DNA from: Mumia flava | Lineage (GTDB): Bacteria; Actinomycetota; Actinomycetes; Propionibacteriales; Nocardioidaceae | Assembly: GCF_002797495.1 (NCBI RefSeq) | Contig: NZ_PGEZ01000001.1 | Coordinates: 1,426,001-1,490,000 of the forward strand | DNA length: 64,000 nt | Reading direction: 5' to 3' | Made by a program: the position numbers and the translations under genes | Shown: positions 32,066 to 63,440 of the stretch, one piece after another | How positions within the stretch are numbered: position 1 is the stretch's first letter | How the letters are laid out: every line of letters starts with the position of its first letter | The notes under the pieces: generated by a model | The model's input: only the letters and a program-made list of their open reading frames with translations | Told to the model about the DNA's origin: nothing | The model's database searches: none

Positions 32066-32110
32066 GTCGCTGCTCCCTCGCAGGCACCGAGACCATCCTC
32101 TAGGCCTAAA

Positions 32111-32147
32111 CGAGACAATAGTATGGGTAAAAGCGAGACAATACTAT
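32111..32147 (-). promoter_or_regulatory. A/T-rich promoter with paired repeats upstream of the ATPase gene
   Basis: cgagacaata occurs at 32111 and again at 32134, 23 bp apart. atagtat (32118-32124) and atactat (32141-32147) form an inverted pair. On the minus strand these read as two copies of ATTGTCTCG. The section is the most A/T-rich in this part of the window and lies 46-82 bp before the ATPase ATG. It probably holds its promoter and a regulator site. Confidence 0.6.
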
Positions 32148-32229
32148 ACGTCTAACCGAGATGATTCGATGGCGTGCTCTAGCTTCAGCCGCCAGCGGTA
32201 CACCCCGTCCTCGCAACCTCGATTCGCTT

Positions 32230-45500: not shown

Positions 45501-45511
45501 ACGAACGCCCC

Positions 45512-45545
45512 CGGCGCCCCCTTCGCAGTCGCGGAGGGGGCGCCG
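45512..45545 (+). terminator. Terminator of the rhamnosidase gene
   Basis: 15-bp arms (45512-45526 and 45531-45545, one mismatch) with loop agtc, 12 bp after the stop. Confidence 0.85.
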
Positions 45546-45640
45546 TTGTGTGCGCATGCAGCGCACCAGCCGGACAGGCGACTCCGTACGCCCGTCACGG
45601 CGGCTGAATCTGAGTGATCGCCTCCGCCTACGCAGCAGGG

Positions 45641-45680
45641 TTGACAGATATACCTTAGCGCTAAGACAGTGATGCCTAAG
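45641..45680 (+). promoter_or_regulatory. Promoter with island operator A
   Basis: A perfect TTGACA (45641-45646) is followed by the perfect dyad cttagcgctaag (45654-45665). Exactly 15 bp further is a half-matching copy, gtgatgcctaag (45669-45680). These are copies of the dyad found in four other control regions of the 45.6-63.4 kb island. The dyad lies between -35 and start, so binding would repress the MBL gene. Confidence 0.75.
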
Positions 45681-45704
45681 GGATATTCGGAAGTGGAGGA
45701 ATCC

Positions 45705-46895
45705 ATGTGTGAAACCTGTTCGACGGCGTCTGGCCGGAGCTTCGACCGGCGGACTCTCCTTGGTGGAGCGGCCGCCACGGCGGCTGCGACCGCGGCCGCA
45801 CAGTTCGTGACCGCTCCAGCGGCGGCCGCGGCCCCTGCTGGTGGGCAGACTCACGATCTGACCGGCATGAGCGTGCGACTCCTCGGCACCGCAGGCGGCC
45901 CCGTCTGGTACCCCGGGACGGATCGTGCCGGGACCAGCACTGCCGTGGTGGTCGACGGAGCCGTCTACCTGTTCGACTGCGGTGATGGTTCACTTCGCCG
46001 GTTCCGGGAAGCAGGCCTCGGAAGCATGGCGACCGATTTCGCAGGCTTCGAGAACCTCCGGACGGTGTTCCTCACCCACCTCCATCCGGATCACTACCTC
46101 GACCTCCCCGGGCTGCTGCTCTTCGCTCCCGTTCTGGGCCTCACGAAAGGCGCGTTCGACACCATCGGGCTCTACGGCCCCGGATCGCGAGGCGTCCTCC
46201 CACCGGTCGATCCGCGCCTCTCAGAGCCGGATCTCATCAGCCCAGCCGAGCCGCTTCCCGGCACGTCGGCACTGGTCGACCACATGATCGCCGGGAGCGC
46301 GACATCCTTGAACGAGAGCATGCGCGACACCGGACGGGCGGACGTCCGCCACCAGGTGATCGCGCACGACGTCGCGCTTCCCAGCTCGCTCCTCGTCGAC
46401 CCGAACCAGGACACGGCACCGTCGATGGCGCCCTTCGTCGTCTACGAGGACGATCGGGTCCGGGTATCCGCGACACTCGTGCCGCACGGCGTCACCTTCC
46501 CCGCCTTCGGCTACCGGGTGGAGTCCGAGCACGGTGTCGTGGCCATCTCAGGGGACACCGCCGCCTCGAGCAATGTGGTGGCGCTGGCTGCGGACGCCGA
46601 CGTCCTGATTCACGAGGTCGTCGATCCCGCCTGGGCCGAGGGTGTCTTCCCGCAACCGCGGAACCCTCGCCAGGACGCCCTGGTGAGCAAGCTCGTGGAC
46701 TCGCACACCCCTGTCGGGGAGGTCGGGCGCGTCGCAGACGAGGCGGGCGCGCGCAACCTGGTGCTCTCGCACCTCTCGCCGGCCAACTGGCCCGCCGGCC
46801 GGTGGAGACGACAAGTACGGCGGAAGCGCGGCCTCGTCACGGTCGGTCACGACCTCGACCTCGTACGCGTGCGGCCCGGGTCGGATCGGCACTGA
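45705..46895 (+). CDS. Tat-exported metallo-beta-lactamase-fold hydrolase
   Basis: A 396-residue protein starting at ATG 45705 with ggagga upstream. A twin-arginine signal (SFDRRTLLGGAAATAAATAA) directs folded export, as expected for a metalloenzyme. The zinc motif is TVFLTHLHPDHYLDLPGLLL; AISGDTAASS, HEVVD and LVLSHLSP complete the MBL metal site. The nearest pattern is that of arylsulfatase/RNase-Z-like MBL hydrolases. It may act on a lactone or ester precursor outside the cell. First gene of the dyad-controlled island and convergent with the MarR gene. Confidence 0.85.
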   Translation: MCETCSTASGRSFDRRTLLGGAAATAAATAAAQFVTAPAAAAAPAGGQTHDLTGMSVRLLGTAGGPVWYPGTDRAGTSTAVVVDGAVYLFDCGDGSLRRFREAGLGSMATDFAGFENLRTVFLTHLHPDHYLDLPGLLLFAPVLGLTKGAFDTIGLYGPGSRGVLPPVDPRLSEPDLISPAEPLPGTSALVDHMIAGSATSLNESMRDTGRADVRHQVIAHDVALPSSLLVDPNQDTAPSMAPFVVYEDDRVRVSATLVPHGVTFPAFGYRVESEHGVVAISGDTAASSNVVALAADADVLIHEVVDPAWAEGVFPQPRNPRQDALVSKLVDSHTPVGEVGRVADEAGARNLVLSHLSPANWPAGRWRRQVRRKRGLVTVGHDLDLVRVRPGSDRH

Positions 46896-46932
46896 GTCCG
46901 GACGCCGCGCTCGCGGGCTCGGAGAGCTGGAG

Positions 46933-47475
46933 TCAATCCGATTCGACCAGAGGCTCCGCCTGGAAGGACGCGACCGATGCGCTCAGACGTCGCAGCAGCG
47001 AGGCAAGCATCGCCTGCTCGTGGGCGTCGAGCAGACCGAGCATCGCCTGCTCGGTGGCGAGGTGGTCCGCGAAGACCGCATCGATCTTCCCCAGCCCGAG
47101 CTCGGTGAGCTCGGCGTAGACGACCCGCCGGTCCTCCTTCGAGCGCGTCCGCCGGATCAGCCCGTCCGCTTCCATCTTGTCCAGGCGGAACGTGATCCCG
47201 CCGGACGTCAGCAGCGACGACTCCGCGAGCTCGCCTGCCGTCTTGCGGTGCGGCGCACCGGAGCGGCGCAGGTTCGCGAGGACGTCGAAGGACGCCAGCG
47301 TCAGCCCGTGCCGCTCGTGCACCTGGCGCAGGACCGCACGCTGAGCCGCGTTGAGCCGGGTGATGCGCCCGAAGACCCCGATCGCCGCGGCGTCCAGGTC
47401 GGGCCGTTCGCGCGTCCACTGGGCGACGATGTCATCGACTTCGTCACGCTCGTCCTGCGACACGTTCGCCTCCAT
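46933..47475 (-). CDS. MarR-family repressor, presumed controller of the catabolic island
   Basis: A 180-residue MarR protein. The winged-helix part has LTLASFDVLANLRRSGAPHR, SLLTSGGITFRLDKMEADGL and the wing RRTRSKEDRRVVYAELTELG. ATG 47475 has gaggag upstream; the ATG at 47502 has none. It is divergent from the coxMSL genes, and dyads B1 and B2 lie in the shared spacer. It is the only regulator gene in the island, so I infer it binds all five dyad regions and is released by a pathway compound. Confidence 0.88.
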   Translation of the reverse strand: MEANVSQDERDEVDDIVAQWTRERPDLDAAAIGVFGRITRLNAAQRAVLRQVHERHGLTLASFDVLANLRRSGAPHRKTAGELAESSLLTSGGITFRLDKMEADGLIRRTRSKEDRRVVYAELTELGLGKIDAVFADHLATEQAMLGLLDAHEQAMLASLLRRLSASVASFQAEPLVESD

Positions 47476-47515
47476 GTGGCTCTCCTCGACTCCACTGGCC
47501 ATTGCCAGAAAAGAT

Positions 47516-47547
47516 CTTTGCCCTAAACTATATATCCCAGCGTTAAG
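47516..47547. promoter_or_regulatory. Island operator B (two dyads) between marR and the Mo-hydroxylase genes
   Basis: ctttgccctaaa (47516-47527) and cccagcgttaag (47536-47547, reverse of cttaacgctggg) match the island dyad; they are 20 bp apart. The spacer is A/T-rich (actatatat) and probably holds both divergent promoters. Confidence 0.65.
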
Positions 47548-47610
47548 ATTGTTAACACAGGAAACACTTCAACGGCACCGAAGCATAGTGCCAGGACAGA
47601 GAGTCTCGAC

Positions 47611-47640
47611 ATGACGACAACCGCGTGGCGGCGCCGGTGA
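47611..47640 (+). CDS. Possible nine-residue leader peptide before the FAD-subunit gene
   Basis: An ATG at 47611 opens a frame of nine codons (MTTTAWRRR) whose TGA (47638-47640) overlaps the GTG at 47637. The upstream ggacagagag is a fair ribosome site, and the GTG itself has none. This would make start of the FAD subunit depend on translation of the leader. It could also be chance. Confidence 0.35.
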   Translation: MTTTAWRRR

Positions 47641-48518
47641 AGCCCGCTCCGTTCGAGTACGTCCGCGCTCGATCCCTCCACGAGGCGGCCGAGCTCCTGG
47701 CCGCCGACCCCGACGCGAAGGTGCTCGCGGGCGGCCAGTCCCTCGTCCCCATGCTGAGCATGCGTCTGGCCAGACCTGCCCGGCTCGTCGACGTCGGGCG
47801 AATCGAGCACCTCGCGTACGTGGACGAGGTCGAAGGTCACCTCGAGATCGGCGCAACGGCCACCCAGACCCAGGTGGCAACCCACCCGCTGACCCTGTCC
47901 CGGGTGCCGATCCTGTCCGCCGGCATCGCCAGGATCGGGCACACGCAGATCCGCAACCGGGGCACCGTCTGCGGCAGCCTCGCCCACCACGACCCGTCGG
48001 CGGAGCTGCCCGCGCTCGCGCTGGCGCTCGACGCCCGGCTGACCTCGTTCAGCGTCCGCGGCCCCGTCTCGCGCACCGCGGACGCGTTCTTCACCGGGAC
48101 GTTCGACACCGCGCTCGACCTCGACGAGGTGCTGACGTCGGTCCAGTTCGCGATGCCTCCCGAGGGGACCGGCTGGTCGTTCCGCGAGGTCGCGCGCCGC
48201 AGCGGCGACTTCGCCCTCGTCGGTGTCGGCGCACTGCTCCACACCGACGACGCGGGCGTGGTCGACCACGTCCGGATCTCCCTGTTCGGCGTGGGGTCCA
48301 CGCCCGTCCGGGTGCGCGCGGTCGAGGACCGGCTCCTCGGCACGGTGGTGGACGAGCCCGCGCTCGACGCGGCGGCCGAGGCCACCGCCGACCAGATCGA
48401 CCCGACCAGCGACGCGCACGCCTCCGCGGACTACCGGCGCGAGGTCGCTGCCCATCTCGTCCAGGAGGCCCTCGCCGAGGCGTGGGCCACGACCAGGAGG
48501 AAGCACGCCGATGCCTGA
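47637..48518 (+). CDS. FAD-binding medium subunit of a CO-dehydrogenase-type molybdenum hydroxylase
   Basis: A 293-residue CoxM/CutM-like subunit. Taking the GTG at 47637 gives the family-typical start (V/M)KPAPFEYVRARSLHEA; a GTG at 47625 is also open. FAD contacts are in VLAGGQSLVPMLSMRLARP and IGHTQIRNRGTVCGSLAHHD. It passes electrons from the 2Fe-2S subunit to an acceptor. The 3' end overlaps the small-subunit gene by eight bases. Part of a complete M-S-L set with coxG-like gene after it. Confidence 0.92.
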   Translation: MKPAPFEYVRARSLHEAAELLAADPDAKVLAGGQSLVPMLSMRLARPARLVDVGRIEHLAYVDEVEGHLEIGATATQTQVATHPLTLSRVPILSAGIARIGHTQIRNRGTVCGSLAHHDPSAELPALALALDARLTSFSVRGPVSRTADAFFTGTFDTALDLDEVLTSVQFAMPPEGTGWSFREVARRSGDFALVGVGALLHTDDAGVVDHVRISLFGVGSTPVRVRAVEDRLLGTVVDEPALDAAAEATADQIDPTSDAHASADYRREVAAHLVQEALAEAWATTRRKHADA

Positions 48519-48993
48519 GATCACCGTGACCGTCAACGGCACCGAGCACCGGCTCGACGTCCACGACCGGCTGCTCCTCACCGACCTGCTCCGCGACCGG
48601 CTGCGGCTCACCGGGACCCACCTCGGGTGCGAGCACGGCGTCTGCGGTGCGTGCACGGTGCTGCTCGACGACCTCCCCGTGCGCGGGTGCCTCGTGCTCG
48701 CCGTGCAGGCGGACGGCCGCCAGGTGCGTACGGTCGAGTCCGTCGCGCCGGACGCGTCCACGCTGCACCCGGTCCAGCAGGCGATGGCGGACTGCCACGG
48801 GCTCCAGTGCGGGTTCTGCACACCCGGCATCGTGATGACCCTCGTCGCGATGCACGAGCGGGACGAGCGACCCGCGACCGACGAGGTCGACGAGGCGCTC
48901 TCCGGCCACCTCTGCCGGTGCACCGGCTACCGCAACATCACCGAGGCCGCGCACCGCGCCCTCGGGTGCGAGCGCGAGGAGGCCCGACGATGA
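48511..48993 (+). CDS. 2Fe-2S small subunit of the molybdenum hydroxylase
   Basis: A 160-residue subunit with both iron-sulfur clusters: plant-type CEHGVCGACTVLL plus Cys in PVRGC, and the second cluster LQCGFCTPGIVM with HLCRCTGYRNI. It starts at ATG 48511 with gaggaag upstream and overlaps the large-subunit ATG by four bases. Confidence 0.94.
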   Translation: MPEITVTVNGTEHRLDVHDRLLLTDLLRDRLRLTGTHLGCEHGVCGACTVLLDDLPVRGCLVLAVQADGRQVRTVESVAPDASTLHPVQQAMADCHGLQCGFCTPGIVMTLVAMHERDERPATDEVDEALSGHLCRCTGYRNITEAAHRALGCEREEARR

Positions 48994-51383
48994 CCGCTCC
49001 GACCGACGGCTCGGCGTCGAGGGCCTCGCTGATCGGCGCCTCGATCCCGCGGCGCGAGGACGACGCGCTCCTGCGGGGCGAGGGCCGGTTCCTCGCCGAC
49101 CTCGACATCCCGGGTGCGCTCGAGGTGGCGTTCGTACGCAGCCCGCACGCGCGCGCCACGCTCACGAAGGTCGACCTCGGCGCGGCCCGCGAGCTTCCGG
49201 GTGTCGTCGCCGCCTTCGCGTGGGACGACCTCCGTGACGACGTCGCCCCGCTCGTGCTCGAGGCGGAGATGCGCGTCCCCGAGCGGGTCGTCGAGGCGGT
49301 GCGGCCGCTGTCGCGCCTGCAGCCGTTCCCGCTGCTCGCCGACGGGGCGGTGCTCTGCGTCGGGCAGCCGGTCGCGGTCGTCGTCGCCGTCGACCGCTAC
49401 GTCGCCGAGGATGCGCTCGAGCTGGTCGACATCGACTACGCGCCGCTGCCGGCACTGGTCGACCCGCTCGACGCCCTCGGGCCGGACGCGCACGCGGTCG
49501 CACCCGGGACGGACGACAACCTCGCGATCTCGGTCGAGGGCCACGTCGGCGACGTCGACGCCGCGCTGAACTCCGCCGTCCACGTCGTCACCGAGCGGTA
49601 CCGCTCGCACCGCTACGTCGCCTCCCCGATGGAGACCCGCGGCGTGGCGGTGACGGTCGACCCGCACGACCGCTCGCTGACGGTGTTCGCCTCGACGCAG
49701 ACACCGCACCGGCTGCGCGAGGTGATCGCCTCGACGCTGGGCATCGACGCGGGCACGGTCCGGGTGACCGCTCCCGACGTCGGCGGCGGCTTCGGCCAGA
49801 AGGGGGTGCAGTACGTCGAGGACGTGCTCGTCCCGTACCTCGCGCGTCGACTCGGCCGACCGGTCCGCTGGGTCGAGGACCGACTGGAGAACCTGACCTC
49901 GTCGTCCCATGCCCGCGAGCAGGTGCACGACATCACGCTCGCCGCGGACGCCGACGGACGGCTGCTCGCGCTGCGCGACGACGTCGTGATCAACCTCGGG
50001 TGCGCGAACCTCACCGGCCTCGTGGTCCCGTACAACACCCTCACCCACGTGATCGGCCCCTACGTCGTCCCCGCGCTCGACCTGCGTGTGCGCGGCGCGC
50101 TGACCAACACGATGTTCGCCACGCCATACCGCGGGGCCGGGCGGCCGGAGGCGGTGTTCGCGATGGAGCGGGCGATGGACCGGCTCGCCCACCAGATCGG
50201 GATCGAGCCGCACGAGCTGCGCGCCCGCAACCTCGTCCAGCCCGAGGCCATGCCCCACGAGACCGGCCTGATGTACCGCGACGGAACGATGCAGACGTAC
50301 GACTCGGGGAACTTTCCCGAGCTGCTCCGCCGCCTGGTCGGGCACCTCGACGTCGACGCGGTCCGCACGCGCCAGGCCGCCGGCGCGTCCGCCGGCCGCC
50401 GGATCGGCGTCGGGCTCGCGATGTACATCGAGGGCACGGGGCTGGGTCCGTTCGAGAGCGGCTCGGTGAGCGTGCTGCCGAACGGGCGGGTGCGGGTCGC
50501 GACCGGAGCCAGCTCCCAGGGCCAGGCGCACCGGACGACCTTCGCCCAGGTCGCCGCGGACGCGCTCGGGGTCCCGTGGGACCGGATCGACCTCGTCGAG
50601 GGCGACACCGCCGCGATCGGGCACGGCGTCGGGACGATCGCCAGCCGCAGCATGGTGACGGCGGGGAACGCGATCCACACCGCAGCGCTCGCGGTGCGGG
50701 AGGCCCTGCTGGCCGACGCGTCGCAGATCCTCGAGATCGCGGTCGAGGACCTCGAGCTCGTCGACGGATCCGTACGACCGGTCGGCATCCCCGACGCCGG
50801 CATCGACGTCGCCGAGCTGGCACGGCGGCGGGCCCCGCTGCTCGCCCCGGGCACCACGACGGGACCGGGTGCGACGGTCAGCGAGACCGCCTTCTTCAAG
50901 CCCCCGACCGTCACCGTGGCGAGTGCCGCTCACGGCGCGGTCGTCGAGGTGGACGAGCGCACCGGCACCGTCGAGATCCTGCGGTACGCCGTGGTGCACG
51001 ATTGCGGACGCGTGGTCAACCCGATGGTCGCCGACGGCCAGGTGACCGGCGGCGTGATGCAGGGCATCGGGGGTGCCCTCTACGAGGAGATGCAGTACGG
51101 GCCGGACGGGCAGCCGCGGTCGGTGACCTACATGGACTACCTGGTCCCGACGTCGGCGGAGGCCCCGCCGTACGTGCTCGACCACGTCGAGACGCCCTCC
51201 ACCCTCAACCCGCTCGGCGTCAAGGGCCTCGGCGAGGGCGGGGCGATCGCCCCGCCGGCCGCCGTCACCAACGCGGTCGAGGACGCCCTCGGCCCCGACC
51301 GCGTCCACCTGACCCGCGGACCGCTCAGCCCGAGCCGGATCCGCGACCACATCCGCGACGGCCGCACGGCCGCAGAGAGGTAG
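48990..51383 (+). CDS. Molybdopterin-binding large subunit of the molybdenum hydroxylase
   Basis: A 797-residue catalytic subunit of the xanthine oxidase/CO dehydrogenase family. Molybdopterin contacts include APDVGGGFGQKG, TPYRGAGRPEAVFAMERAMD and ATGASSQGQAH, and the base Glu is in VKGLGEGGAIAPP. The active-site loop PYRGAGR is form II, not the AYXCSFR loop of true CO dehydrogenase, so the substrate is probably an aromatic or N-heterocyclic compound hydroxylated with water. MCD-dependent assembly genes (coxD/E/F) are not in the window. Confidence 0.92.
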   Translation: MTAPTDGSASRASLIGASIPRREDDALLRGEGRFLADLDIPGALEVAFVRSPHARATLTKVDLGAARELPGVVAAFAWDDLRDDVAPLVLEAEMRVPERVVEAVRPLSRLQPFPLLADGAVLCVGQPVAVVVAVDRYVAEDALELVDIDYAPLPALVDPLDALGPDAHAVAPGTDDNLAISVEGHVGDVDAALNSAVHVVTERYRSHRYVASPMETRGVAVTVDPHDRSLTVFASTQTPHRLREVIASTLGIDAGTVRVTAPDVGGGFGQKGVQYVEDVLVPYLARRLGRPVRWVEDRLENLTSSSHAREQVHDITLAADADGRLLALRDDVVINLGCANLTGLVVPYNTLTHVIGPYVVPALDLRVRGALTNTMFATPYRGAGRPEAVFAMERAMDRLAHQIGIEPHELRARNLVQPEAMPHETGLMYRDGTMQTYDSGNFPELLRRLVGHLDVDAVRTRQAAGASAGRRIGVGLAMYIEGTGLGPFESGSVSVLPNGRVRVATGASSQGQAHRTTFAQVAADALGVPWDRIDLVEGDTAAIGHGVGTIASRSMVTAGNAIHTAALAVREALLADASQILEIAVEDLELVDGSVRPVGIPDAGIDVAELARRRAPLLAPGTTTGPGATVSETAFFKPPTVTVASAAHGAVVEVDERTGTVEILRYAVVHDCGRVVNPMVADGQVTGGVMQGIGGALYEEMQYGPDGQPRSVTYMDYLVPTSAEAPPYVLDHVETPSTLNPLGVKGLGEGGAIAPPAAVTNAVEDALGPDRVHLTRGPLSPSRIRDHIRDGRTAAER

Positions 51384-51385
51384 GC

Positions 51386-51994
51386 ATGGAGCTCCAGCAC
51401 ACGTTCACCGTCCCGATCAACCCCGGAGAGGCCGCCGCGGTGCTGCACGACGTACGGCGGCTCGCGCCGTGCGTACCCGGTGCGACGCTCGACGACTTCG
51501 ACGGACATGAGTTCAGCGGACGGATGACCGTCAAGGTCGGCGCGATCGTGATGGCGTACCAGGGCGCGGGACGGTTCCTGGACGGCGACGACCGGACGAT
51601 CCCGCTGCGCGTCGAGGCACGCGAGACGAAGGGCGCCGGCGGCGCTGCGGCCGACGTCGTGTGCCGGCTGGACGCCGACGGCGACGGCACCCGGGTCGTC
51701 GTCGACACCCGCCTCGACATCTCCGGACGTCCGGCGCAGTTCGGCCGTGGCGTGATCAGCGAGGTCGGCGACCGGGTGATCGCGGCGTTCGCGGACAACC
51801 TCCGGGCCGAGCTCCTCCGGGGCGCGAACGCAGGTGCGGGCGCCGCGGAGGCGGACCGGTCCGCTGCGCCCGCGGCGGCGCCGCTCGACCTCGGATCGGT
51901 CGCCGGCCCTGTGATCGCCCGCAGGCTGGCGCCCGCCGGCGTCGTGCTGGCGATCGCGGCGGCATTTCTCCTCGGACGGCGCAGCGCCCACTGA
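51386..51994 (+). CDS. CoxG-like SRPBCC protein with C-terminal membrane anchor
   Basis: A 202-residue protein: SRPBCC/CoxG domain at 1-145 (MELQHTFTVPINPGEAAAVL, RLAPCVPGATLDDFDGHEFS), an Ala-rich linker and a final hydrophobic segment (GVVLAIAAAFLLGRRSAH). CoxG recruits CO dehydrogenase to the membrane, and this protein probably does the same for the enzyme here. Two bases separate it from the large-subunit gene. Confidence 0.88.
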   Translation: MELQHTFTVPINPGEAAAVLHDVRRLAPCVPGATLDDFDGHEFSGRMTVKVGAIVMAYQGAGRFLDGDDRTIPLRVEARETKGAGGAAADVVCRLDADGDGTRVVVDTRLDISGRPAQFGRGVISEVGDRVIAAFADNLRAELLRGANAGAGAAEADRSAAPAAAPLDLGSVAGPVIARRLAPAGVVLAIAAAFLLGRRSAH

Positions 51995-51998
51995 AGCC

Positions 51999-52021
51999 CG
52001 TTACCGAATCGTTACCGAAAC
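51999..52021 (+). promoter_or_regulatory. Direct repeat cgttaccgaa x2, GlnR-box-like
   Basis: cgttaccgaa occurs at 51999-52008 and 52010-52019, 11 bp apart, giving GTTAC-N6-GTTAC and the AC-N9-AC pattern of actinomycete GlnR boxes. It lies about 80-100 bp upstream of the ABC importer gene, and nitrogen control would fit a nitrogen-containing substrate. The match is to half of a full box only. Confidence 0.4.
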
Positions 52022-52039
52022 TGTCTAGGCGCCATATAT

Positions 52040-52066
52040 CTTAGGTCTAATACTTATTGATCTAAG
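52040..52066 (+). promoter_or_regulatory. Island operator C (two dyads, 15 bp apart)
   Basis: cttaggtctaat (52040-52051) and tattgatctaag (52055-52066, reverse of cttagatcaata) in an A/T-rich promoter region 30-57 bp upstream of the binding-protein gene. Confidence 0.72.
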
Positions 52067-52096
52067 AAGTACTCCCGCTGAGAGAAGGGCCAGCCC

Positions 52097-53119
52097 ATGT
52101 CGAAGAAGCTCGTCACCGCCGCGATGGTGACCGTCACGGCGCTCGTCGCCACCGCCTGCGGAGGCGGCGGCTCGGACGCCTCCGAGAGCGGGAAGGTGAC
52201 GGTCGCCCTGCCGTTCGCCAGCTGCCTGTCCTGGTACCCGCTCTACGTCGCGAAGGACAAGGGCTACTTCGACGACGAGGGGATCGACGCGACGTTCGAG
52301 GCCACGGATGGCTCGGGCGGCGCCGTGCAGGCCACGCTGTCCGGGAAGGCCGACCTCGCGCTCGCGGCACCCAACGCCTACCTGTCCGCGACCGGCACCG
52401 GCGCCGACCTCGAGGCGTACTACGGCTTCTACCAGGCCAGCACGTTCTCGCTCGTCACGCCGAGCGACTCCGGCATCAACGACCTGTCCGACCTCGAGGG
52501 CTCGACGATCGGCATCAGCACCCCCGGCGGCGGCGACGTCATCTACATGGAGTGGCTGATGGCGCAGGCCGGGCTGCACAAGGACGAGGACTTCTCCGAG
52601 CTCGCGGTGGGCGACGGCTCGTCGGCCGCGACGGCGCTCAGCAAGGGCTCCGTCGACGCCTACTCCGCGTCCTTCTTCGACGAGGAGGTCATCAAGGCCG
52701 GCGGGATCGACCTCACCGTGCTGCACGGCGAGGACGAGCCCCAGGTCGTGGACAACTTCCTCGTCGCGACGCAGGAGTGGACGTCGGCCAACAGCGACAC
52801 CGTCGACGGCCTCGGCCGGGCGATCGCTCGCGGGACCGCGTGGGGTCTGGACAACCCCGACGGTGTGATCGACCTGTGCGGCACCTACGCACCGGAGGAG
52901 ACCGAGGACCCCGACTTCGCGAAGGTCGTCTACGACCGGGTCAGCGACCTGCTCACGCTGCCCGCGAGCGCGAACGGCCAGTACGGCGCGATCGACCTCG
53001 ACACGTTCGGCACGGTCGCCGGACAGCTCGCCGACCTGGGGCTGGTGGACAGCGCCGACGGCGCCGCCGACGTGAACAACGACCACGTCGAGGCCTGGAA
53101 CTCCGACCCGGCCTCCTGA
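52097..53119 (+). CDS. Substrate-binding lipoprotein of an NMT1/nitrate-sulfonate-type ABC importer
   Basis: A 340-residue lipoprotein with lipobox VATAC (Cys21). The fold is of the NMT1/THI5/SsuA type: FASCLSWYPLYVAKDKGYFDDE, then GSGGAVQATLSGKADLALA and STIGISTPGGGDVIYMEWLM. Relatives bind nitrate, sulfonates, thiamine precursors, riboflavin or aromatic acids. Being under the island operator, it probably binds the pathway substrate. Followed by its ATPase and permease genes. Confidence 0.88.
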   Translation: MSKKLVTAAMVTVTALVATACGGGGSDASESGKVTVALPFASCLSWYPLYVAKDKGYFDDEGIDATFEATDGSGGAVQATLSGKADLALAAPNAYLSATGTGADLEAYYGFYQASTFSLVTPSDSGINDLSDLEGSTIGISTPGGGDVIYMEWLMAQAGLHKDEDFSELAVGDGSSAATALSKGSVDAYSASFFDEEVIKAGGIDLTVLHGEDEPQVVDNFLVATQEWTSANSDTVDGLGRAIARGTAWGLDNPDGVIDLCGTYAPEETEDPDFAKVVYDRVSDLLTLPASANGQYGAIDLDTFGTVAGQLADLGLVDSADGAADVNNDHVEAWNSDPAS

Positions 53120-53160
53120 GCACCCGCACCAGGCGGCCGCACCCGCCACGAGAGGGAACC

Positions 53161-54018: not shown

Positions 54019-54019
54019 G

Positions 54020-54877: not shown

Positions 54878-54886
54878 AGGATCCCG

Positions 54887-56353: not shown

Positions 56354-56380
56354 CCTCCGGCGATCCCCCGGCACTCCGAC

Positions 56381-56421
56381 GGCGGCCGGCCCCGACCCCG
56401 TGAGGGTCGGGGCCGGCCGCC
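56381..56421. terminator. Bidirectional terminator, 18-bp perfect stem
   Basis: Arms 56381-56398 and 56404-56421 are exact complements around cgtga. It lies between the convergent ALDH and aspartate-dehydrogenase-like genes. Confidence 0.9.
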
Positions 56422-56437
56422 GCTCTCGTGCGGGCGG

Positions 56438-57223
56438 TCAGACGGCGAGGGCCTGGCGGAGGGTCCGCAGCACCGCGTACGGGACGACCTGGCTGGTCCG
56501 CGGGTTGGTCGGCGACGGGCGGTTGCGAACCTCGAACCGGTACGTCCCGACCGGCCCGTCCGCCTCCACCACGTGCGACACCAGGGTGGCGGCCGGATCG
56601 GCGACCAGCTCCACCTCGACCTCGCTCTCGGGGAGCATGAGCGCCAGGGTCGCGGCGACGTTGAGGGACCTGGGGAACAGCGGCGCCGCCTGCTCTGCCG
56701 TGCCGCGGAAGACGACGACGGGCGCGTCGGTGCCGAGCAGCGCGTCACGCTGCGGGTCGTCCATCCAGTCCTGCACGAGTGCGGAGGGCGTCTTCGTCGT
56801 CGTCAGCCGGACCCGCCCGAAGGGAGCGGCGGAGGCGCCTGCCACCAGCAGGTCGAGCCCGCCGAGCGCGCCCGTTGTGAGGAAGGTACGGCCCGGCCCG
56901 GCCGCATCCAGGCGGGCCCGGAGGTCGCGGTCGACGAGGGCGCCGACCGACGAGATCACCAGATCCGTCCCGGAGTCGAGGATCCGCGCCCCGTGCGCGA
57001 GCAGGGCGGCGTGCCCGGCGCACTCGATCAGGACGTCGGCACGGGCGGTCGCCTCGTCGACGTCGACGACCGGGACGTCGACCCGGCCGCGGGCCCGATC
57101 GCCGACCACGCAGCTCAGGCGTGCGCCGGGGACGCGTCCTGCGGCGAGCTCGTCGGCGACGACGGAGCCGATCGAGCCGAAGCCGAGCACGGCGACCTCA
57201 CGGGTGGGACTCGACGTGGTCAC
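56438..57223 (-). CDS. Aspartate-dehydrogenase-like (DUF108) protein
   Basis: A 261-residue NAD(P)-binding protein. The Rossmann turn is VAVLGFGSIGSVVADELAAG. DVLIECAGHAALLAHGARIL, VISSVGALVD, TTGALGGLDLLV, TTTKTPSAL and RSLNVAATLALM are the marks of L-aspartate dehydrogenase/NadX. The GTG at 57223 has ggagg upstream. AspDH makes iminoaspartate or runs in reverse to assimilate ammonia. In a catabolic cluster it more likely acts on an amino or imino acid intermediate, which would imply a nitrogenous substrate. Divergent from the SDR gene with operator D between. Confidence 0.88.
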   Translation of the reverse strand: MTTSSPTREVAVLGFGSIGSVVADELAAGRVPGARLSCVVGDRARGRVDVPVVDVDEATARADVLIECAGHAALLAHGARILDSGTDLVISSVGALVDRDLRARLDAAGPGRTFLTTGALGGLDLLVAGASAAPFGRVRLTTTKTPSALVQDWMDDPQRDALLGTDAPVVVFRGTAEQAAPLFPRSLNVAATLALMLPESEVEVELVADPAATLVSHVVEADGPVGTYRFEVRNRPSPTNPRTSQVVPYAVLRTLRQALAV

Positions 57224-57241
57224 GCACACCTCCAAAATTAA

Positions 57242-57268
57242 CTTGGCTCAAAGATACTCAGAACTGAG
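57242..57268. promoter_or_regulatory. Island operator D (two dyads, 15 bp apart)
   Basis: cttggctcaaag (57242-57253) and ctcagaactgag (57257-57268) in the divergent spacer between the aspartate-dehydrogenase-like and SDR genes. The first resembles the other island dyads; the second is an inverted repeat in the same 15-bp register with a more divergent centre. Confidence 0.65.
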
Positions 57269-57290
57269 AGATCATGGTAGCGTGATCGGC

Positions 57291-58091
57291 ATGGAACTTG
57301 GACTCGCCGGTCGGACGGCTCTCGTCACCGGCGGCAGCTCGGGCATCGGGCTCGCCGTCGTCGAGACGCTGCTGGCCGAGGGCGCCCGCGTGGCCACCTG
57401 CGGCCGCGACGCGACCCGCCTCGAGATGGCCCTCGAGCACCTGCGTAGCACGCACGGCGACCGACTGCGTACGGCCGTGGCCGACGTGACCGACGCCGAC
57501 CAGGTCGGCGCCTTCGTCGCGGACGCCCTCGACGCCTTCGGCTCGGTCGACGTGCTCGTCAACAACGCGGGCCGCTCGCACCTGTCCACGTTCGCGACGA
57601 CCACGGACGACGCGTGGCGCGAGGAGCTCGACCTCAAGCTCTTCGGCGTCGTGCACCCCACGCGGGCGGCCCTGCCCGCGCTGCGCGCCTCGGACGCCGC
57701 GGCCATCGTCAACGTCAACGCCGTGCTCGCCCGGCAGCCCGAGCCGCACCTCGTCGCCACCTCGGCGGCACGCGCGGCCCTGCTCAACCTGACCAAGTCG
57801 ATGGCCGGCGAGCACGCCGACGACGGCGTGCGGGTCAACTCCGTGAGCGTCGGCGTGATCGACACCGGCCAGTGGACCCGCCGCTGGGAGGCCGCACGCG
57901 CCGAGGGCAGCACCGCGCTCGCGTACGACGCGTGGGCCCGCGACCTGGCCGCCGACCGGCGCATCGCGCTCGGACGGCTCGGCACCGCCCAGGAGGTCGC
58001 GGACGCGATCGTGTTCCTCGCGTCGCCGCGCGCGTCGTACGTGACCGGCACCCAGCTCGAGGTCGCGGGCGGGGTGAGCCGCTATGTCTGA
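57291..58091 (+). CDS. SDR-family protein lacking the usual Tyr-Lys catalytic pair
   Basis: A 266-residue short-chain dehydrogenase/reductase. The cofactor motif is VTGGSSGIGLAVVETLLAEG, and NNAGRSHLSTF is normal. The YxASK active site, however, reads ATSAARAALLNLTKSM: Tyr is Thr/Ala and Lys is Arg, and the Ser before it is also changed (NVNAVLARQ). This matches the 3-oxoacyl-reductase-like SDR subgroup that lacks the Tyr. It may work by another mechanism or serve a binding role. ATG 57291 has little ribosome site; the in-frame GTG at 57282 is an alternative. Overlaps the ThDP gene by eight bases. Confidence 0.82.
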   Translation: MELGLAGRTALVTGGSSGIGLAVVETLLAEGARVATCGRDATRLEMALEHLRSTHGDRLRTAVADVTDADQVGAFVADALDAFGSVDVLVNNAGRSHLSTFATTTDDAWREELDLKLFGVVHPTRAALPALRASDAAAIVNVNAVLARQPEPHLVATSAARAALLNLTKSMAGEHADDGVRVNSVSVGVIDTGQWTRRWEAARAEGSTALAYDAWARDLAADRRIALGRLGTAQEVADAIVFLASPRASYVTGTQLEVAGGVSRYV

Positions 58092-59793
58092 GCAGCCCTC
58101 TGCGACTGAGCAGCCCCCGGCGGCCGATCAGCCTGCCCCGCGCCCCGCGGCGCTCGACGCGACCAACGGCGGCGACCTGCTCGTCGCGGTGATGGACGCG
58201 CTCGGCGTCGACGTCGCGTTCGGCGTCGTCAGCGTGCACAACCTGCCCCTGGTCGACGCGATCGCCTCCCGGCGCCGATTCGTCCCGGTCCGGCACGAGG
58301 CCGCCGCGGTGAACGCCGCCGATGCGTACGGGCGCGTCCGCGGCACCGTCGGCGTCGCCCTGACCAGCACCGGCACCGGCGCGGGCAACGCCGCGGGCTC
58401 GCTCGTCGAGGCGCTGGCGACCGGCTCCCGGGTGCTGCACGTCACGGGCCAGATCGAGAGCCGCTACCTCGGCCAGGGCCGCGGCTTCATCCACGAGACG
58501 AAGGACCAGGCCGGGATGCTGGCCGCGGTCAGCAAGGCCGCGTACACCATCTTCAACGTCGACTGCGCCGCCGACATCCTGGCCGGCGCCGCGGCCGAGG
58601 CCCTGACCGCGCCGTACGGGCCCGTCAGCGTCGAGTGGCCGATCGACCTCCAGTACCGTCCGCACGAGATCGGCACCGTGACGGTCGAGCCGTTCGCGGA
58701 CGCGGCTCCCGACGTCGACGAGGACGCACTCGCCGATGCGGCCGCCCTGGTCGCGGGCGCACGCCGACCGCTGCTCTGGATCGGCGGGGGCGCAGTCGAG
58801 GCGCGCGACGAGGTGCTCGCGCTCGCGACGCGCACCCGCGCCGGGATCCTCACCAGCAACTCCGGCCGCGGCGTGGTCGGCGAGGGCCACGGGGCCTGCG
58901 TCGGCAACTTCGCCACCAGTCCGGCGGTGCGCCCGCTGCTGGAGTCGGCGGACCTGCTCGTGAGCGTCGGGACGCACTTCCGCAGCAACGAGACGGGCGA
59001 CTACGCGCTGCCGCTGCCGGTCCCCCACGTCCAGATCGATGTCGACAAGGCGGCGATCGGTCGGGTGCACCCGGCCGAGGTCGGTCTCGTCGGTGACGCC
59101 GCGGCGACGCTCGCCCGGCTCACCGATGCGCTCCCCGATCGGACGGCGACCGAGGACGGCTGGCTCACCCAGGTCGCCGCCGCCCGGCGCGGGGCACGCC
59201 AGGCACTGCGCGACGGCATCGGCTGGCAGGCCCAGATCTGCGACGCGGTGCGCTCGGCGTTCCCGCGGCAGGCGGTCCTCGCCCGCGACGTGACCATCCC
59301 GTCGAGCATGTGGGGCAACCGGCTGCTCGCGGTCGACGACCCGAGCGTCAACGTCTTCCCGCGCGGCGGCGGCATCGGGCAAGGACTCGCGATGGGCATC
59401 GGGGCCGCGATCGCTCGGCCGGACCTGCCGACCCTGATCCTCGCCGGCGACGGCGGGCTCGCGGTCCACCTCGGCGAGCTCGGCACGCTCGCGCAGGAGC
59501 GTCCGTGGGCCGTGCTGCTGCTCTTCAACGACGGCGGGTACGGCGTGCTGCGCAACACCCAGGACGGGTTCGTCGGACGCCGCTCCGGGGTCGATCTCGC
59601 GACGCCCGACTTCGGCCGACTCGCCGCTGCGTACGGGCTGCCGCACACGGTCGTCCGCAGCGTCGACGCGATCGAGGAGGCGCTCGCCTCCGCCCTGTCG
59701 GCGCGTGGTCCCGCCGTGGTCGAGGTCGACGTCGACGCGCTCGGCCCGATCCCCCGCCCGTTCACCCCGCCGGTCAGCATCCCCGGCGCCTGA
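58084..59793 (+). CDS. Thiamine-diphosphate-dependent enzyme (acetolactate-synthase/benzoylformate-decarboxylase superfamily)
   Basis: A 569-residue ThDP enzyme. The N-terminal pyrimidine-binding domain has the catalytic Glu in VPVRHEAAAVNAADAYGRVR. The central domain has LLWIGGGAVEARDE. The C-terminal diphosphate-binding motif is LAGDGGLAVHLGELGTLAQE through FNDGGYG. A flexible Pro/Ala tail precedes residue 25. It cannot be assigned between decarboxylase, carboligase and lyase. In this cluster, decarboxylation of a 2-oxo acid derived from the ring is the simplest role. Confidence 0.88.
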   Translation: MSEQPSATEQPPAADQPAPRPAALDATNGGDLLVAVMDALGVDVAFGVVSVHNLPLVDAIASRRRFVPVRHEAAAVNAADAYGRVRGTVGVALTSTGTGAGNAAGSLVEALATGSRVLHVTGQIESRYLGQGRGFIHETKDQAGMLAAVSKAAYTIFNVDCAADILAGAAAEALTAPYGPVSVEWPIDLQYRPHEIGTVTVEPFADAAPDVDEDALADAAALVAGARRPLLWIGGGAVEARDEVLALATRTRAGILTSNSGRGVVGEGHGACVGNFATSPAVRPLLESADLLVSVGTHFRSNETGDYALPLPVPHVQIDVDKAAIGRVHPAEVGLVGDAAATLARLTDALPDRTATEDGWLTQVAAARRGARQALRDGIGWQAQICDAVRSAFPRQAVLARDVTIPSSMWGNRLLAVDDPSVNVFPRGGGIGQGLAMGIGAAIARPDLPTLILAGDGGLAVHLGELGTLAQERPWAVLLLFNDGGYGVLRNTQDGFVGRRSGVDLATPDFGRLAAAYGLPHTVVRSVDAIEEALASALSARGPAVVEVDVDALGPIPRPFTPPVSIPGA

Positions 59794-59815
59794 GACCCTC
59801 AAGGAGACGACGCAG

Positions 59816-60727
59816 ATGACATCCCTCGTTCCCCCGCGGCTGCGCGCGCTGCGCCACGTCGGCCTGCGGACCTCCGCGTTCGACGAGTCGGTGGCGTTCT
59901 ACGCCGGCCCGTGGGGCCTGGAGATCGTCGAGCGCACCGACGACGCCGTCTACCTCCGCGCCGCCGGCCCCGAGCACCACGTCCTGGCGCTCTACCGCTC
60001 CGCGTCGAACGCGCTCGACCACGTGGCGTTCGCCGTGCCGACGCCGGCGGAGGTCGACGCGGCCGCAGCCTGGGTCGAGGCCGAGGGCACGACGATCCTC
60101 GAGAAGCCCGGGCCGCTCGACCGGCCCGGTGCCGGGTACGGCTTCCGGTGCCTCGATCCCGAGAACCGCGTGCTCGAGATCAGCGCCGAGAACCACGCGG
60201 TGCCCGAGCGCCCGCAGGACGTGCCGGTTCCCCGCAAGGTCGCTCACGTCGTCCTCAACACGACCGACATCGACGCTGCCACCGCCTGGTACACCCGCGT
60301 GCTCGGACTGCGGGTCAGCGACTGGTCCGAGCACAAGATGGTGTTCCTGCGCGCGGTCGGCGACCACCACGTCGTCGCCTTCAACCAGGCCGAGTGGACC
60401 GCCCCGAACCACGTCGCGTACGAGGTCGCGAGCCTGGACGCCTGGATGCGCTCGATCGGGCGGCTCAAGGTCGCGGGCCACGAGGTGTCCTGGGGACCCG
60501 GGCGGCACGGTCCCGGCGACAACGCGTTCGCGTACTACGTCGACCCGGCCGGGCTCGTGCCCGAGATGACGGCCGAGGTCCTGCAGATCGACGACGACAC
60601 CTGGATGCCGCGGGTCTGGCCGCGCACCCCCGAGCTGTCCGACCTCTTCCGCACCGCCGGCCCGCCGTCGCCCTTCATCCGCGAGCACATGGCCGGCGTC
60701 CCCGATCCCGGGTGGGTGCAGGGCTGA
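59816..60727 (+). CDS. Type I extradiol ring-cleavage dioxygenase (VOC fold)
   Basis: A 303-residue two-domain VOC protein. The C-terminal domain has the full iron set: His144 (KVAHVVLNTTD), His199 (PNHVAYEV) and Glu250 (GLVPEMTAEV). It also has His231 and Tyr241 in GRHGPGDNAFAYYVDP, in line with the acid-base His and Tyr of extradiol enzymes. Aaggag precedes ATG 59816. It would insert O2 next to a diol, as in catechol 2,3-dioxygenases, so the pathway should produce a dihydroxylated ring. The exact ring is unknown. Confidence 0.88.
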   Translation: MTSLVPPRLRALRHVGLRTSAFDESVAFYAGPWGLEIVERTDDAVYLRAAGPEHHVLALYRSASNALDHVAFAVPTPAEVDAAAAWVEAEGTTILEKPGPLDRPGAGYGFRCLDPENRVLEISAENHAVPERPQDVPVPRKVAHVVLNTTDIDAATAWYTRVLGLRVSDWSEHKMVFLRAVGDHHVVAFNQAEWTAPNHVAYEVASLDAWMRSIGRLKVAGHEVSWGPGRHGPGDNAFAYYVDPAGLVPEMTAEVLQIDDDTWMPRVWPRTPELSDLFRTAGPPSPFIREHMAGVPDPGWVQG

Positions 60728-60806
60728 CCTCCTGGCCCTGCACCCGCTCGCACCCACCTGCCCCGAACAGCTCCCGCCACGGGACCCACGAAGGAAGGAA
60801 CCACCG

Positions 60807-61328
60807 ATGACCAGCACCACGACCGAGACCCACCCCGAGCTCGAGGCCGCCTTCGACCGGGCGCTCGCGACCAGCGCGACCCGCACGATCGACTTCGACA
60901 CCCTGAAGTTCCAGACCAAGGCCGGCGACAAGTTCCGCCGCGCCCAGGTCCGCTACATCGGGTCGGGCGCCACCGGCAACCACGAGGGTGATGCCAACAT
61001 CATCCCGTCGGACCACTTCACGTTCTCGAACATGATCCTTCCGTCGGGCTGCGTCGGCCCCGAGCACACGCACCACGACGTGGAGGAGGCGTTCTTCGTG
61101 CTCGAGGGCGAGGTCGAGTTCACCCTCCACGACGTCGAGGACGGCACCAAGACCGCCAGCCGCGTGCTCGGCAGGTACGACCTCCTCTGCGTGCCCGCCG
61201 GCGTGCCGCGGAGCCTCGAGACGGTGAGCGAGGAGGATGCGCGGATCTGCGTCATCATCGGCACCCAGAAGCCGCAGCTGCCGACGTACCCGGAGACGTC
61301 GGAGATGCACGGCGTCACCCGCGACTGA
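60807..61328 (+). CDS. Cupin-domain protein
   Basis: A 173-residue single-cupin protein. Motif 1 is intact (GPEHTHHDVEEAFFVLEGEV, with two His and a Glu). Motif 2 (LGRYDLLCVPAGVPRSLETV) has Arg where the third metal His usually lies. A metal site with two His and one Glu remains possible. It may be a dioxygenase, isomerase or stability factor for a ring-cleavage step. GgaaggaaC precedes ATG 60807. The next gene starts two bases after the stop. Confidence 0.82.
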   Translation: MTSTTTETHPELEAAFDRALATSATRTIDFDTLKFQTKAGDKFRRAQVRYIGSGATGNHEGDANIIPSDHFTFSNMILPSGCVGPEHTHHDVEEAFFVLEGEVEFTLHDVEDGTKTASRVLGRYDLLCVPAGVPRSLETVSEEDARICVIIGTQKPQLPTYPETSEMHGVTRD

Positions 61329-61330
61329 AC

Positions 61331-62140
61331 GTGTCGCACGACGTCGACCCGCGGGCCGTCGCGGCACGCCTCAGCACGAGGCGCGCCGGCGACGGCCCGC
61401 TCCTGTTGTGCCTGCACGGCATCGGCGGGTCCTCCGCCACCTTCGAGCCGCAGCTGGCCTCGCTCGCCGACCTCGCCACCGTGGTCGCCTGGGACGCACC
61501 CGGGTACGCAGGCTCCCCCGACTCCGGGGCGCACCTGACGATGGACGACTACGCCGACGTCGCCGCCGAGGTGATCGAGGCGCACGGCCAGGGCCGTGCC
61601 GCGGTCCTCGGGATGTCCTGGGGCGGGGTGATCGCGATGCGGCTCGCCCAGCGGCACCCCGAGCGGGTCCGCGCGCTCGTGCTCGGCGACAGCACCCGCG
61701 GCTCGGGGCGGTCGCCCGAGACGGCCGCGGCGATGCGGTCGCGCGCGGCCGAGCTCGCCGAGGTCGGCCCCGACGTCTTCGCGCAGCGACGCGCGGCACG
61801 GCTGCTGCGCACGTCCGCGCCCGCCGACGAGGTGGCCTCGCAGGCGCGGGCCATGGCCTCCGCGATCCGGCTCCCCGGCTACGGAGACGCCACCGCGTCG
61901 ATGGCGGCGACGTGGTTGGACGGGTCGCTCGGGACGATCGACGTGCCGACGCTCGTGCTGCACGGCGACGACGACCGCATCACCGGCGCGCCCGAGAGCG
62001 AGGCGATCGCGGCGCAGATCCCCGGGGCCGTCCTGCGGGTGGTGCCGGAGGCGGGGCACCTGGCGAACACCGAGAACCCGATGGCGTTCGACGCCCACGT
62101 GCGCAGCTTCCTCCGCGCACTCGCTCCCGCGCGTCGCTGA
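61331..62140 (+). CDS. Alpha/beta hydrolase (enol-lactonase/C-C hydrolase-like)
   Basis: A 269-residue hydrolase: oxyanion region CLHGIGGSSATFEPQL, nucleophile LGMSWGGVIAMRLAQ, acid Asp in LHGDDDRITG and His in PEAGHLANTENP. The end resembles 3-oxoadipate enol-lactonases, and the same fold serves meta-cleavage C-C hydrolases and N-formylmaleamate deformylase. It follows the extradiol dioxygenase and cupin genes, so hydrolysis of the ring-fission product is likely. GTG start at 61331. A 25-bp terminator hairpin follows. Confidence 0.87.
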   Translation: MSHDVDPRAVAARLSTRRAGDGPLLLCLHGIGGSSATFEPQLASLADLATVVAWDAPGYAGSPDSGAHLTMDDYADVAAEVIEAHGQGRAAVLGMSWGGVIAMRLAQRHPERVRALVLGDSTRGSGRSPETAAAMRSRAAELAEVGPDVFAQRRAARLLRTSAPADEVASQARAMASAIRLPGYGDATASMAATWLDGSLGTIDVPTLVLHGDDDRITGAPESEAIAAQIPGAVLRVVPEAGHLANTENPMAFDAHVRSFLRALAPARR

Positions 62141-62163
62141 CCGGCTCGAACGGCGCGCACCGA

Positions 62164-62216
62164 CCGCACGACGCAGCGCCCGCCCCGGTGGCCGGGGCGG
62201 GCGCTGCGTCGTGCGG
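62164..62216. terminator. Bidirectional terminator, 25-bp perfect stem
   Basis: Arms 62164-62188 and 62192-62216 are exact complements around a 3-base loop. It ends the SDR-to-hydrolase operon and the convergent monooxygenase gene. It is the longest perfect hairpin I found in the window. Confidence 0.92.
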
Positions 62217-62222
62217 GTCTGC

Positions 62223-63341
62223 TCAGTCGAGCGGGACCGACCAGGCGTCGTAGCCGTAGACCCACTCGCCCGTACCGGAGTCCTTGAGCCAGGCGTTGTC
62301 GCGCGAGGAGACCTGGATCCGCGCCGTACGCTCCCGCCGCGCCCGCTCGTACGGGACGAACGCCTCCGCGGGATCCTCGGCGGCTTCGACGCAGCGCGTG
62401 AGGACGACCGCGTCCTCGATCGCCTGACCGGCGCCCTGGGCCATGAACGGCATCATCGGGTGGCAGGCGTCCCCGAGCAGCGTGGCGCGGCCGGCGGTCC
62501 ACGACGGGAGCGGGTCGCGCACGTAGAGCGCGGACTTCAGCACCTCGTCGCACGCACTGAGGAGCCTCCGCGCCTCGGGGTGGAAGTCGGCGTACAGCTC
62601 GCGCAGCTCCGCGACCCGCCCGGGCTGCGTCCAGGACTCCTCGTGCCAGCCGTCCTGGGGGATGGTCGCGAAGATGAAGAGGTCGCGCCCGCGGTTGAGC
62701 GGGAACGTGACGATCTGGGTGTTGACGTCGGGCCCCCACCACTTGGTGAAGGCGTCCAGGTTCGCGACGCCGGTGAGCGTCTCGACGGGGACGACGGCGC
62801 GGAACGCGACCACGCCGGTGAACGTGGGGCTCTCGGGCCCGTGGATCACGGTCCGGACGGTGGAGTGGATCCCGTCGGCGCCGATCACGACGTCGGCACG
62901 GGCGCTCTCCCGGTCGGCGAACGCGAGCTCGACCCCGCCGGAGTCCTGGGTGATCCCGACCAGACGGTGATCGAAGCGGACGACGCCGTCCGGCAGTGCG
63001 TCCTCCAGCGCGTTCATCAGGTCGGCGCGGTGCATCGTGAGCTGCGGCGCTCCGTACTGCTCCTCCGCCACGTCGCCCATCGGCAGCCGGGAGGTCTCCT
63101 CACCGGTGTCGTACGTGCGGCTGATCCGTGCGACCGGCCGGGCGGCGGTCTCGCGCAGCGCGTCCCCGACGCCGAGACCGTCGAGCGCGCGGACCGCGTT
63201 CGGGGTCAGGTTGATGTCAGCGCCGACGCGGGCGAACTTGGGTGCCTGCTCGTAGACGACCACGTCGTGCCCGAGCCGGCGCAGCCCGATGGCCGCGCAC
63301 AGCCCGCCGATGCCCGCTCCGCTGATCGCGATCGTCGCCAT
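62223..63341 (-). CDS. FAD-dependent aromatic monooxygenase, NicC/salicylate-hydroxylase-like
   Basis: A 372-residue class A flavin monooxygenase. The Rossmann motif is ISGAGIGGLCAAIGLRRLGH, the DG motif is VVIGADGIHSTVRTV, and the GD motif is ATLLGDACHPMMPFMAQGAG. KWWGPDVNTQ, the second-helix IHR/MHRADL and the C-terminal WVYGYD are close to 6-hydroxynicotinate 3-monooxygenase NicC. Such enzymes hydroxylate at a carboxylate-bearing carbon with loss of CO2. ATG 63341 has ggaagg upstream. It has its own operator E. The substrate could equally be another hydroxy-aromatic acid. Confidence 0.88.
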   Translation of the reverse strand: MATIAISGAGIGGLCAAIGLRRLGHDVVVYEQAPKFARVGADINLTPNAVRALDGLGVGDALRETAARPVARISRTYDTGEETSRLPMGDVAEEQYGAPQLTMHRADLMNALEDALPDGVVRFDHRLVGITQDSGGVELAFADRESARADVVIGADGIHSTVRTVIHGPESPTFTGVVAFRAVVPVETLTGVANLDAFTKWWGPDVNTQIVTFPLNRGRDLFIFATIPQDGWHEESWTQPGRVAELRELYADFHPEARRLLSACDEVLKSALYVRDPLPSWTAGRATLLGDACHPMMPFMAQGAGQAIEDAVVLTRCVEAAEDPAEAFVPYERARRERTARIQVSSRDNAWLKDSGTGEWVYGYDAWSVPLD

Positions 63342-63368
63342 GTTCGCCTTCCGTCCCACGTCATAACT

Positions 63369-63395
63369 CTTTGGTCTAAAAATATTAGACCAAAG
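63369..63395 (-). promoter_or_regulatory. Island operator E (two dyads, 15 bp apart)
   Basis: ctttggtctaaa (63369-63380) and attagaccaaag (63384-63395) are near-perfect copies in inverted order, 28-54 bp before the monooxygenase ATG. The spacer is A/T-rich. These two copies are the clearest members of the set and define CTTTGGTCTAAW. Confidence 0.78.
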
Positions 63396-63440
63396 ATACT
63401 TGCTCAGGGCAAGGCCCGCTCGCGACGGCGCCGACGGACG

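Follow-up and report, generated by a model that had tools for sequence, protein, structure and literature searches.

Which protein reads a 12-bp dyad that recurs before the operons of a catabolic gene island in Mumia flava, and what would its binding do? The island, as initially delimited, occupies positions 45,641 to 63,395 of a 64,000-nucleotide stretch of the genome (the window, to which positions refer unless stated otherwise), and an initial annotation of that stretch had proposed that the MarR protein encoded at 46933 binds the dyads in five control regions, A to E, and controls the entire pathway. This MarR is the sole regulator recognised by annotation among the island genes. As the best explanation of the data as a whole, we consider it highly probable that A-E are the operators of one local, autoregulated MarR repressor that would be released by an inducer.

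All words listed in the initial annotation were located at their coordinates in the window, and the regions are arranged as follows.

45654 to 45680: operator A, box 45654-45665 (perfect dyad) and half box 45669-45680, preceding the metallo-beta-lactamase (MBL)-fold gene
47501 to 47527: operator B, strong box 47516-47527 and degenerate left partner 47501-47512 in the 15-bp register
47536 to 47547: second copy listed for B, an uncertain one that matches moderately well and lies 20 bp after the first
52040 to 52066: operator C, with two boxes (52040-52051, 52055-52066) at 15-bp spacing
57242 to 57268: operator D, located between nadX and the short-chain dehydrogenase/reductase (SDR) gene, with two boxes (57242-57253, 57257-57268) at 15-bp spacing
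63369 to 63395: operator E, a nearly perfect 27-bp palindrome with two boxes (63369-63380, 63384-63395) at 15-bp spacing

The two copies are spaced by exactly 15 bp in C, D and E, as had been stated; A has one and a half boxes (the half copy at 45669 had been described as such), and in B the 20 bp between the two copies agree with the annotation's own coordinates. The sites do lie in A/T-rich patches, as had been stated: 60-bp windows centred on A-E have a G+C content of 40-47% compared with 72% overall and belong to the lowest 0.1-0.5% of the window. The proposed distance of 20-60 bp from a start codon was roughly right but not uniform, because with start codons picked by eye it ranges from 13 to about 110 bp (MBL-fold gene, 24 bp; marR, 40 bp; C, 30 bp; SDR, 13-22 bp; nadX, 18 bp; FAD monooxygenase, 27 bp; xdhM, about 110 bp).

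The same operator was found at marR and at every putative operon of the cluster, with B lying between marR and xdhM, and it is rare elsewhere in the genome. Without mismatches, the degenerate box HTTWGNNCWAAD matched five times in the 4.4-Mb genome, always within A, B, C or E (reversed control: four matches), and the 27-bp pair HTTWGNNCWAAD-N3-HTTWGNNCWAAD with up to three mismatches matched five times, at the five control regions (control: none), whereby B was matched via the degenerate left partner at 47501 and not via the copy at 47536. A loose consensus with three mismatches was not enriched in the window (72 found versus 105.6 expected), so that only the stricter forms discriminate. When each region in turn was left out, its strong boxes ranked between 2 and 15 in the window, the second copy of B ranked 101 and the half copy of A ranked 114. 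Because the box and pair patterns were both made from the sites themselves, an independent matrix test carries more weight. We derived such a matrix only from the eight boxes of the syntenic cluster in Actinomadura sp. CNU-125 and scored it at 63,989 window positions; ranks 1 to 8 were taken by A1, C1, E2, E1, C2, B1, D1 and D2, that is, by eight of the nine copies initially listed. The second copy of B (47536) came 11th, the half copy of A (45669) 99th and the left partner of B (47501) 540th.

The Actinomadura cluster is syntenic from marR to the FAD monooxygenase, with aligned segments that are 56-90% identical and a MarR identity of 79% over 160 residues (71% over 180 alignment columns). 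A comparison of orthologous clusters had been suggested as a check, and the shared regions B, C, D and E of Actinomadura indeed all carry a 15-bp pair; its 10-Mb genome has seven pattern matches, of which these pairs are the top four. Its B region has a clear left box at 15 bp where that of the window is degenerate. When both clusters are aligned, the pair stands out as the best conserved stretch in C and D and does so less clearly in B and E. No match to the MBL-fold protein was found in the 37 kb of the Actinomadura cluster that were examined.

The spacing recurs in more distant loci. We assembled 31 core-positive loci with at least two core enzymes, several of them from close kin or the same genome, including Actinomadura and leaving out the window, and scanned them with TWWGNNCWWA, a pattern that admits both half-site forms described below and was chosen after upstream regions had been inspected. 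With at most one mismatch and spacings of 11-30 bp allowed, the spacing was 15 bp in 17 of 24 distinct pairs, compared with no such pair in the reversed control; at two mismatches it was 15 bp in 30 of 74 (the next spacing, 22 bp, had 13; control: one). Among 66 loci without the core, the 15-bp spacing accounted for three of four pairs at one mismatch and five of ten at two. For 20 of 35 MarR genes in core-positive loci, the 600 bp upstream contained a pair with up to three mismatches, compared with seven of 65 in the others. We infer with good support that the cluster's MarR binds the boxes and controls the whole pathway, because the boxes are confined to the island within the genome, are kept in Actinomadura and recur beside MarR homologues.

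Judged from gene order, A-E appear to be the control regions of all units of the island, which comprises the following genes and putative transcription units.

45705 to 46895, plus strand: MBL-fold hydrolase, ribonuclease Z-like (Pfam PF12706/PF00753), with a Tat-like signal by eye
46933 to 47475, minus strand: marR, MarR-family regulator of 180 aa and proposed repressor (alternative start 47502; Pfam MarR_2, E 2.5e-12)
47502 to 47555: two divergent predicted sigma-70-like promoters, rightward 47502-47529 and leftward 47555-47527
47637 to 51994, plus strand: molybdenum hydroxylase operon with FAD, 2Fe-2S and molybdopterin subunits and a CoxG-like protein
47637 to 48518, plus strand: xdhM
about 48517 to 48990, plus strand: xdhS, 2Fe-2S subunit (by eye)
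48990 to 51383, plus strand: xdhL
51380 to 51994, plus strand: CoxG-like gene
52097 to 56353, plus strand: ATP-binding cassette (ABC) importer and aldehyde dehydrogenase
52097 to 53119, plus strand: NMT1-type substrate-binding protein
about 53164 to 54018, plus strand: importer ATPase (by eye)
54020 to 54877, plus strand: importer permease
54887 to 56353, plus strand: aldehyde dehydrogenase
56438 to 57223, minus strand: nadX-like gene, aspartate dehydrogenase family
57282 to 62140, plus strand: unit of SDR (first), thiamine pyrophosphate (TPP) enzyme, vicinal oxygen chelate (VOC) protein, cupin and hydrolase
58084 to 59793, plus strand: TPP enzyme
59816 to 60727, plus strand: two-domain VOC dioxygenase-like protein
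60807 to 61328, plus strand: cupin
61331 to 62140, plus strand: alpha/beta hydrolase
62223 to 63341, minus strand: FAD monooxygenase, closest solved relative 6-hydroxynicotinate 3-monooxygenase

A promoter scan of 45500-63500 found only the two promoters in this list, with 0.2 expected, and both are located at operator B. The rightward one overlies the operator, and the −10 element of the leftward one overlaps the strong box, so that its start would probably fall inside the operator. The D pair ends 13-22 bp ahead of the SDR start codon. Both placements fit repression with autoregulation. Each 12-bp dyad CTTWG-NN-CWAAG would hold one MarR dimer, giving two dimers per operator of about 27 bp, and without inducer MarR would block the promoters of marR, of the molybdenum hydroxylase and importer/aldehyde dehydrogenase operons, of nadX, of the operon running from the SDR to the hydrolase, and of the genes for the FAD monooxygenase and the MBL-fold protein. 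Binding of a substrate or intermediate of the pathway to MarR would then release all units together. MarR could instead have an activating or dual role at some of these promoters, and an excerpt of PMC9613470 mentions MarR proteins of both kinds; because operator B covers one predicted promoter and sits at the −10 of the other, and the D pair lies so close to the SDR start, we regard such a role as unlikely here.

The boxes might instead bind a regulator encoded elsewhere, such as a distant MarR paralogue or another factor, with the island MarR regulating itself only or something else. Paralogues of MarR abound in the family (matches at E ≤ 1e-15 in 288 of 294 genomes), but the boxes are absent elsewhere in the genome, and in other genomes the pairs lie close to MarR genes. 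When 341 family genomes were scanned with TWAGNNCTWA-N5-TWAGNNCTWA at no more than one mismatch, 19 of the 20 matches, found in 13 genomes, were less than 10 kb from a MarR homologue; the pattern had been written after inspection of upstream regions in ten of these 13 genomes, and the reversed control gave 12 matches in 11 genomes, one of which (G222) is among the 13. The twentieth match (G109:C2) precedes a gene whose counterpart in G211, identified by eye, has a similar site 9 kb from MarR. With the window-type pattern at three mismatches, 16 of 19 matches in 20 MarR-bearing genomes were likewise within 10 kb of a MarR homologue, a distance given for the true pattern only (misses: G010, G175:C28 and G313:C46).

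The half-site type also changes along with the recognition helix of MarR. All 12 readable helices from loci with TTAG-nn-CTAA boxes, including the window, have Gly-Gly (one further row was unreadable), and all 12 from loci with TAAG-nn-CTTA boxes have Ser-Ala or Ala-Gly; the loci with a Gly-Ala helix (L082, L083, L085 and L124) stand outside this count. In a tree of 25 rows, with both traits read by script for 21 of them and some classes assigned by eye or on weak pairs, two changes of operator class are seen, each accompanied by a change of the helix. These joint changes are suggestive of a pairing between MarR and the boxes and, although only two, speak against a regulator encoded elsewhere, which we regard on balance as improbable. 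A further step, which we put forward tentatively and would not be surprised to see fail, is that an actinobacterial MarR clade reads modular dyads, two and sometimes three in a row, spaced by exactly 15 bp, and that a two-residue position in the helix switches between TTAG (Gly-Gly) and TAAG (Ser-Ala or Ala-Gly) while the assembly stays constant. By eye, the Gly-Ala relatives L082 and L085 have TGGG/TTGT-type boxes upstream at 15-bp steps.

That the dyads are instead elements of A/T-rich starts conserved for promoter function or DNA structure would suit their coincidence with rare A/T-rich patches, yet is hardly credible given that exact matches to the single box are confined to the island in the 4.4-Mb genome and that the reversed pattern has no 15-bp peak in relatives.

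Several results weigh against A-E being operators of the local MarR. The second box of A and the partner of B are weak, and the leftward predicted −10 (47532-47527) shares a single base with the strong box. A sign test on helix and half-site gives p 0.5 from the two independent changes. Upstream of MarR itself, 15 of the 35 genes in core-positive loci have no pair, and some of the loci concerned carry pairs before other operons. At one mismatch, the window-type pair occurs in only two of the 341 genomes of the family, that of Mumia flava itself and G232; at three mismatches, the 19 matches in the 20 MarR-bearing genomes compare with 18 for the reversed control, eight of these genomes have no match, and 15 further genomes gave 60 matches versus 156 for the control. 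The window-pattern scans show no excess in number, and their signal lies in placement. In intergenic stretches of relatives, column-permuted matrices equalled or exceeded the density of the true one in 11, 9, 3 and 4 of 200 cases (thresholds 8, 9, 10 and 12, respectively) and gave up to 12 pairs at 15 bp versus three for the window matrix. The sequences suggest that this failure may stem from the TAAG-nn-CTTA half-sites of many relatives; the later scans allow both half-site forms, a choice made after viewing the relatives' sequences.

By profile, the island MarR has the winged-helix domain of its family: it passes the cut-offs of PF12802 (47.2 bits; cut-off 27) and PF01047 (45.7 bits; cut-off 24.6), and its closest solved sequences in the PDB are the MarR-family regulators 8ylh (E 9e-27) and 8ylf (E 4e-25). 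The operators of SlyA and E. coli MarR are 12-bp dyads with 5-N2-5 geometry like the island boxes, although their half-site words differ, and we know of no fixed 15-bp pairing in them. The initial annotation had placed the two dimers on related helix faces, but 15 bp correspond to 1.43 turns or about 154 degrees, so that neighbouring dimers would be expected on almost opposite faces. The Rv2887-DNA crystal structure provides a geometric precedent for such a predicted two-dimer operator: according to passages of PMC5526998, two MarR dimers covering 15 bp each lie there on nearly opposite faces. Rv2887 is likewise a MarR-family protein, places two dimers on a 27-30 bp site and inserts helix alpha4 into the major groove (same passages), and its spacing of about 15 bp is matched exactly by C, D and E, by half in A and uncertainly in B. 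Unlike the A/T-rich dyads of the Mumia flava island, which recur at fixed spacing, the Rv2887 site is described there as rich in G/C; a 6-bp palindrome lies under one of its dimers, and indirect readout is proposed. By name, no Rv2887 molecule was among the 29 PDB matches to the island MarR at E ≤ 1e-4. Two-dimer binding is also discussed for TetR, LysR and AraC proteins in part of a review (PMC6018408). Triple dyads at 15-bp steps were seen at positions 14827-14868 of locus L156, 8299-8340 of locus L166 and G288:C1:3694064-3694105, suggesting arrays longer than two dimers.

Because MarR regulators of auxin degradation are known and a TPP enzyme next to an aldehyde dehydrogenase could fit one proposed route, auxin (iad) degradation was considered as the identity of the cluster. 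IadR and IacR resemble the island MarR in being encoded beside a degradation locus and, according to an excerpt of PMC9613470, keep the locus repressed until bound by a compound of the pathway; the DNA site reported there lies between the genes iadR and iadA. The Variovorax MarR_73 structure 7kfo, so named in part of PMC11630574, is a weak PDB match to the island MarR (E 3.6e-6). However, the iad genes as described in a portion of PMC12633357 encode a Rieske oxygenase, an acyl-CoA synthase, a thiolase and an amidase, which the annotations of the island do not show; we rejected auxin degradation as the identity of the cluster because the reported gene set differs by annotation. Very probably, a single regulator encoded within the degradation cluster controls the entire cluster.

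No title or abstract start in the searched literature pointed to this gene set, although the regulon may still have been described. The present reading would assign a regulator with its DNA sites to a conserved degradation gene set that these searches did not name. The spread of clusters that share one spacing and fall into two half-site types would offer a natural test of how MarR specificity changes under a constant two-dimer assembly, and the operators together with the regulator would serve as an inducer screen for finding the pathway substrate.

The cluster is accessory, because of the six genomes of the genus only that of Mumia flava has the TPP enzyme (E ≤ 1e-60), and MarR matches in the congeners are far weaker (best E 4e-28 to 5e-25, versus 4e-117 for the own protein). 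Its G+C content of 72.2% is no different from that of the window (71.8%). In an empty-site comparison, the malic enzyme was kept in five congeners and no window sequence left of the island adjoined it there. NCBIfam matches of the MBL-fold protein were below the cut-offs. A 9-residue leader open reading frame (ATG to TGA) lies at 47611-47640, its stop overlapping the GTG at 47637 that is proposed to start xdhM, and the same layout was seen by eye in the Actinomadura locus (L073).

Two loci on proteobacterial plasmids (L167 and L168) encode a TPP enzyme, an SDR, a cupin, an alpha/beta hydrolase and an FAD monooxygenase, with VOC and NadX proteins in L168; a Rieske oxygenase and IclR regulators are present, and no molybdenum hydroxylase was found within the stretch viewed. 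No pair was found in the 52 kb of these loci, which is weak evidence because so short a sequence would hold few by chance. Far from the island, at 32090-32170 of the window, there is a further A/T-rich patch with a box-like word at 32099 and GAGACAATA repeats, followed by an open reading frame that reads by eye like a TetR N-terminus.

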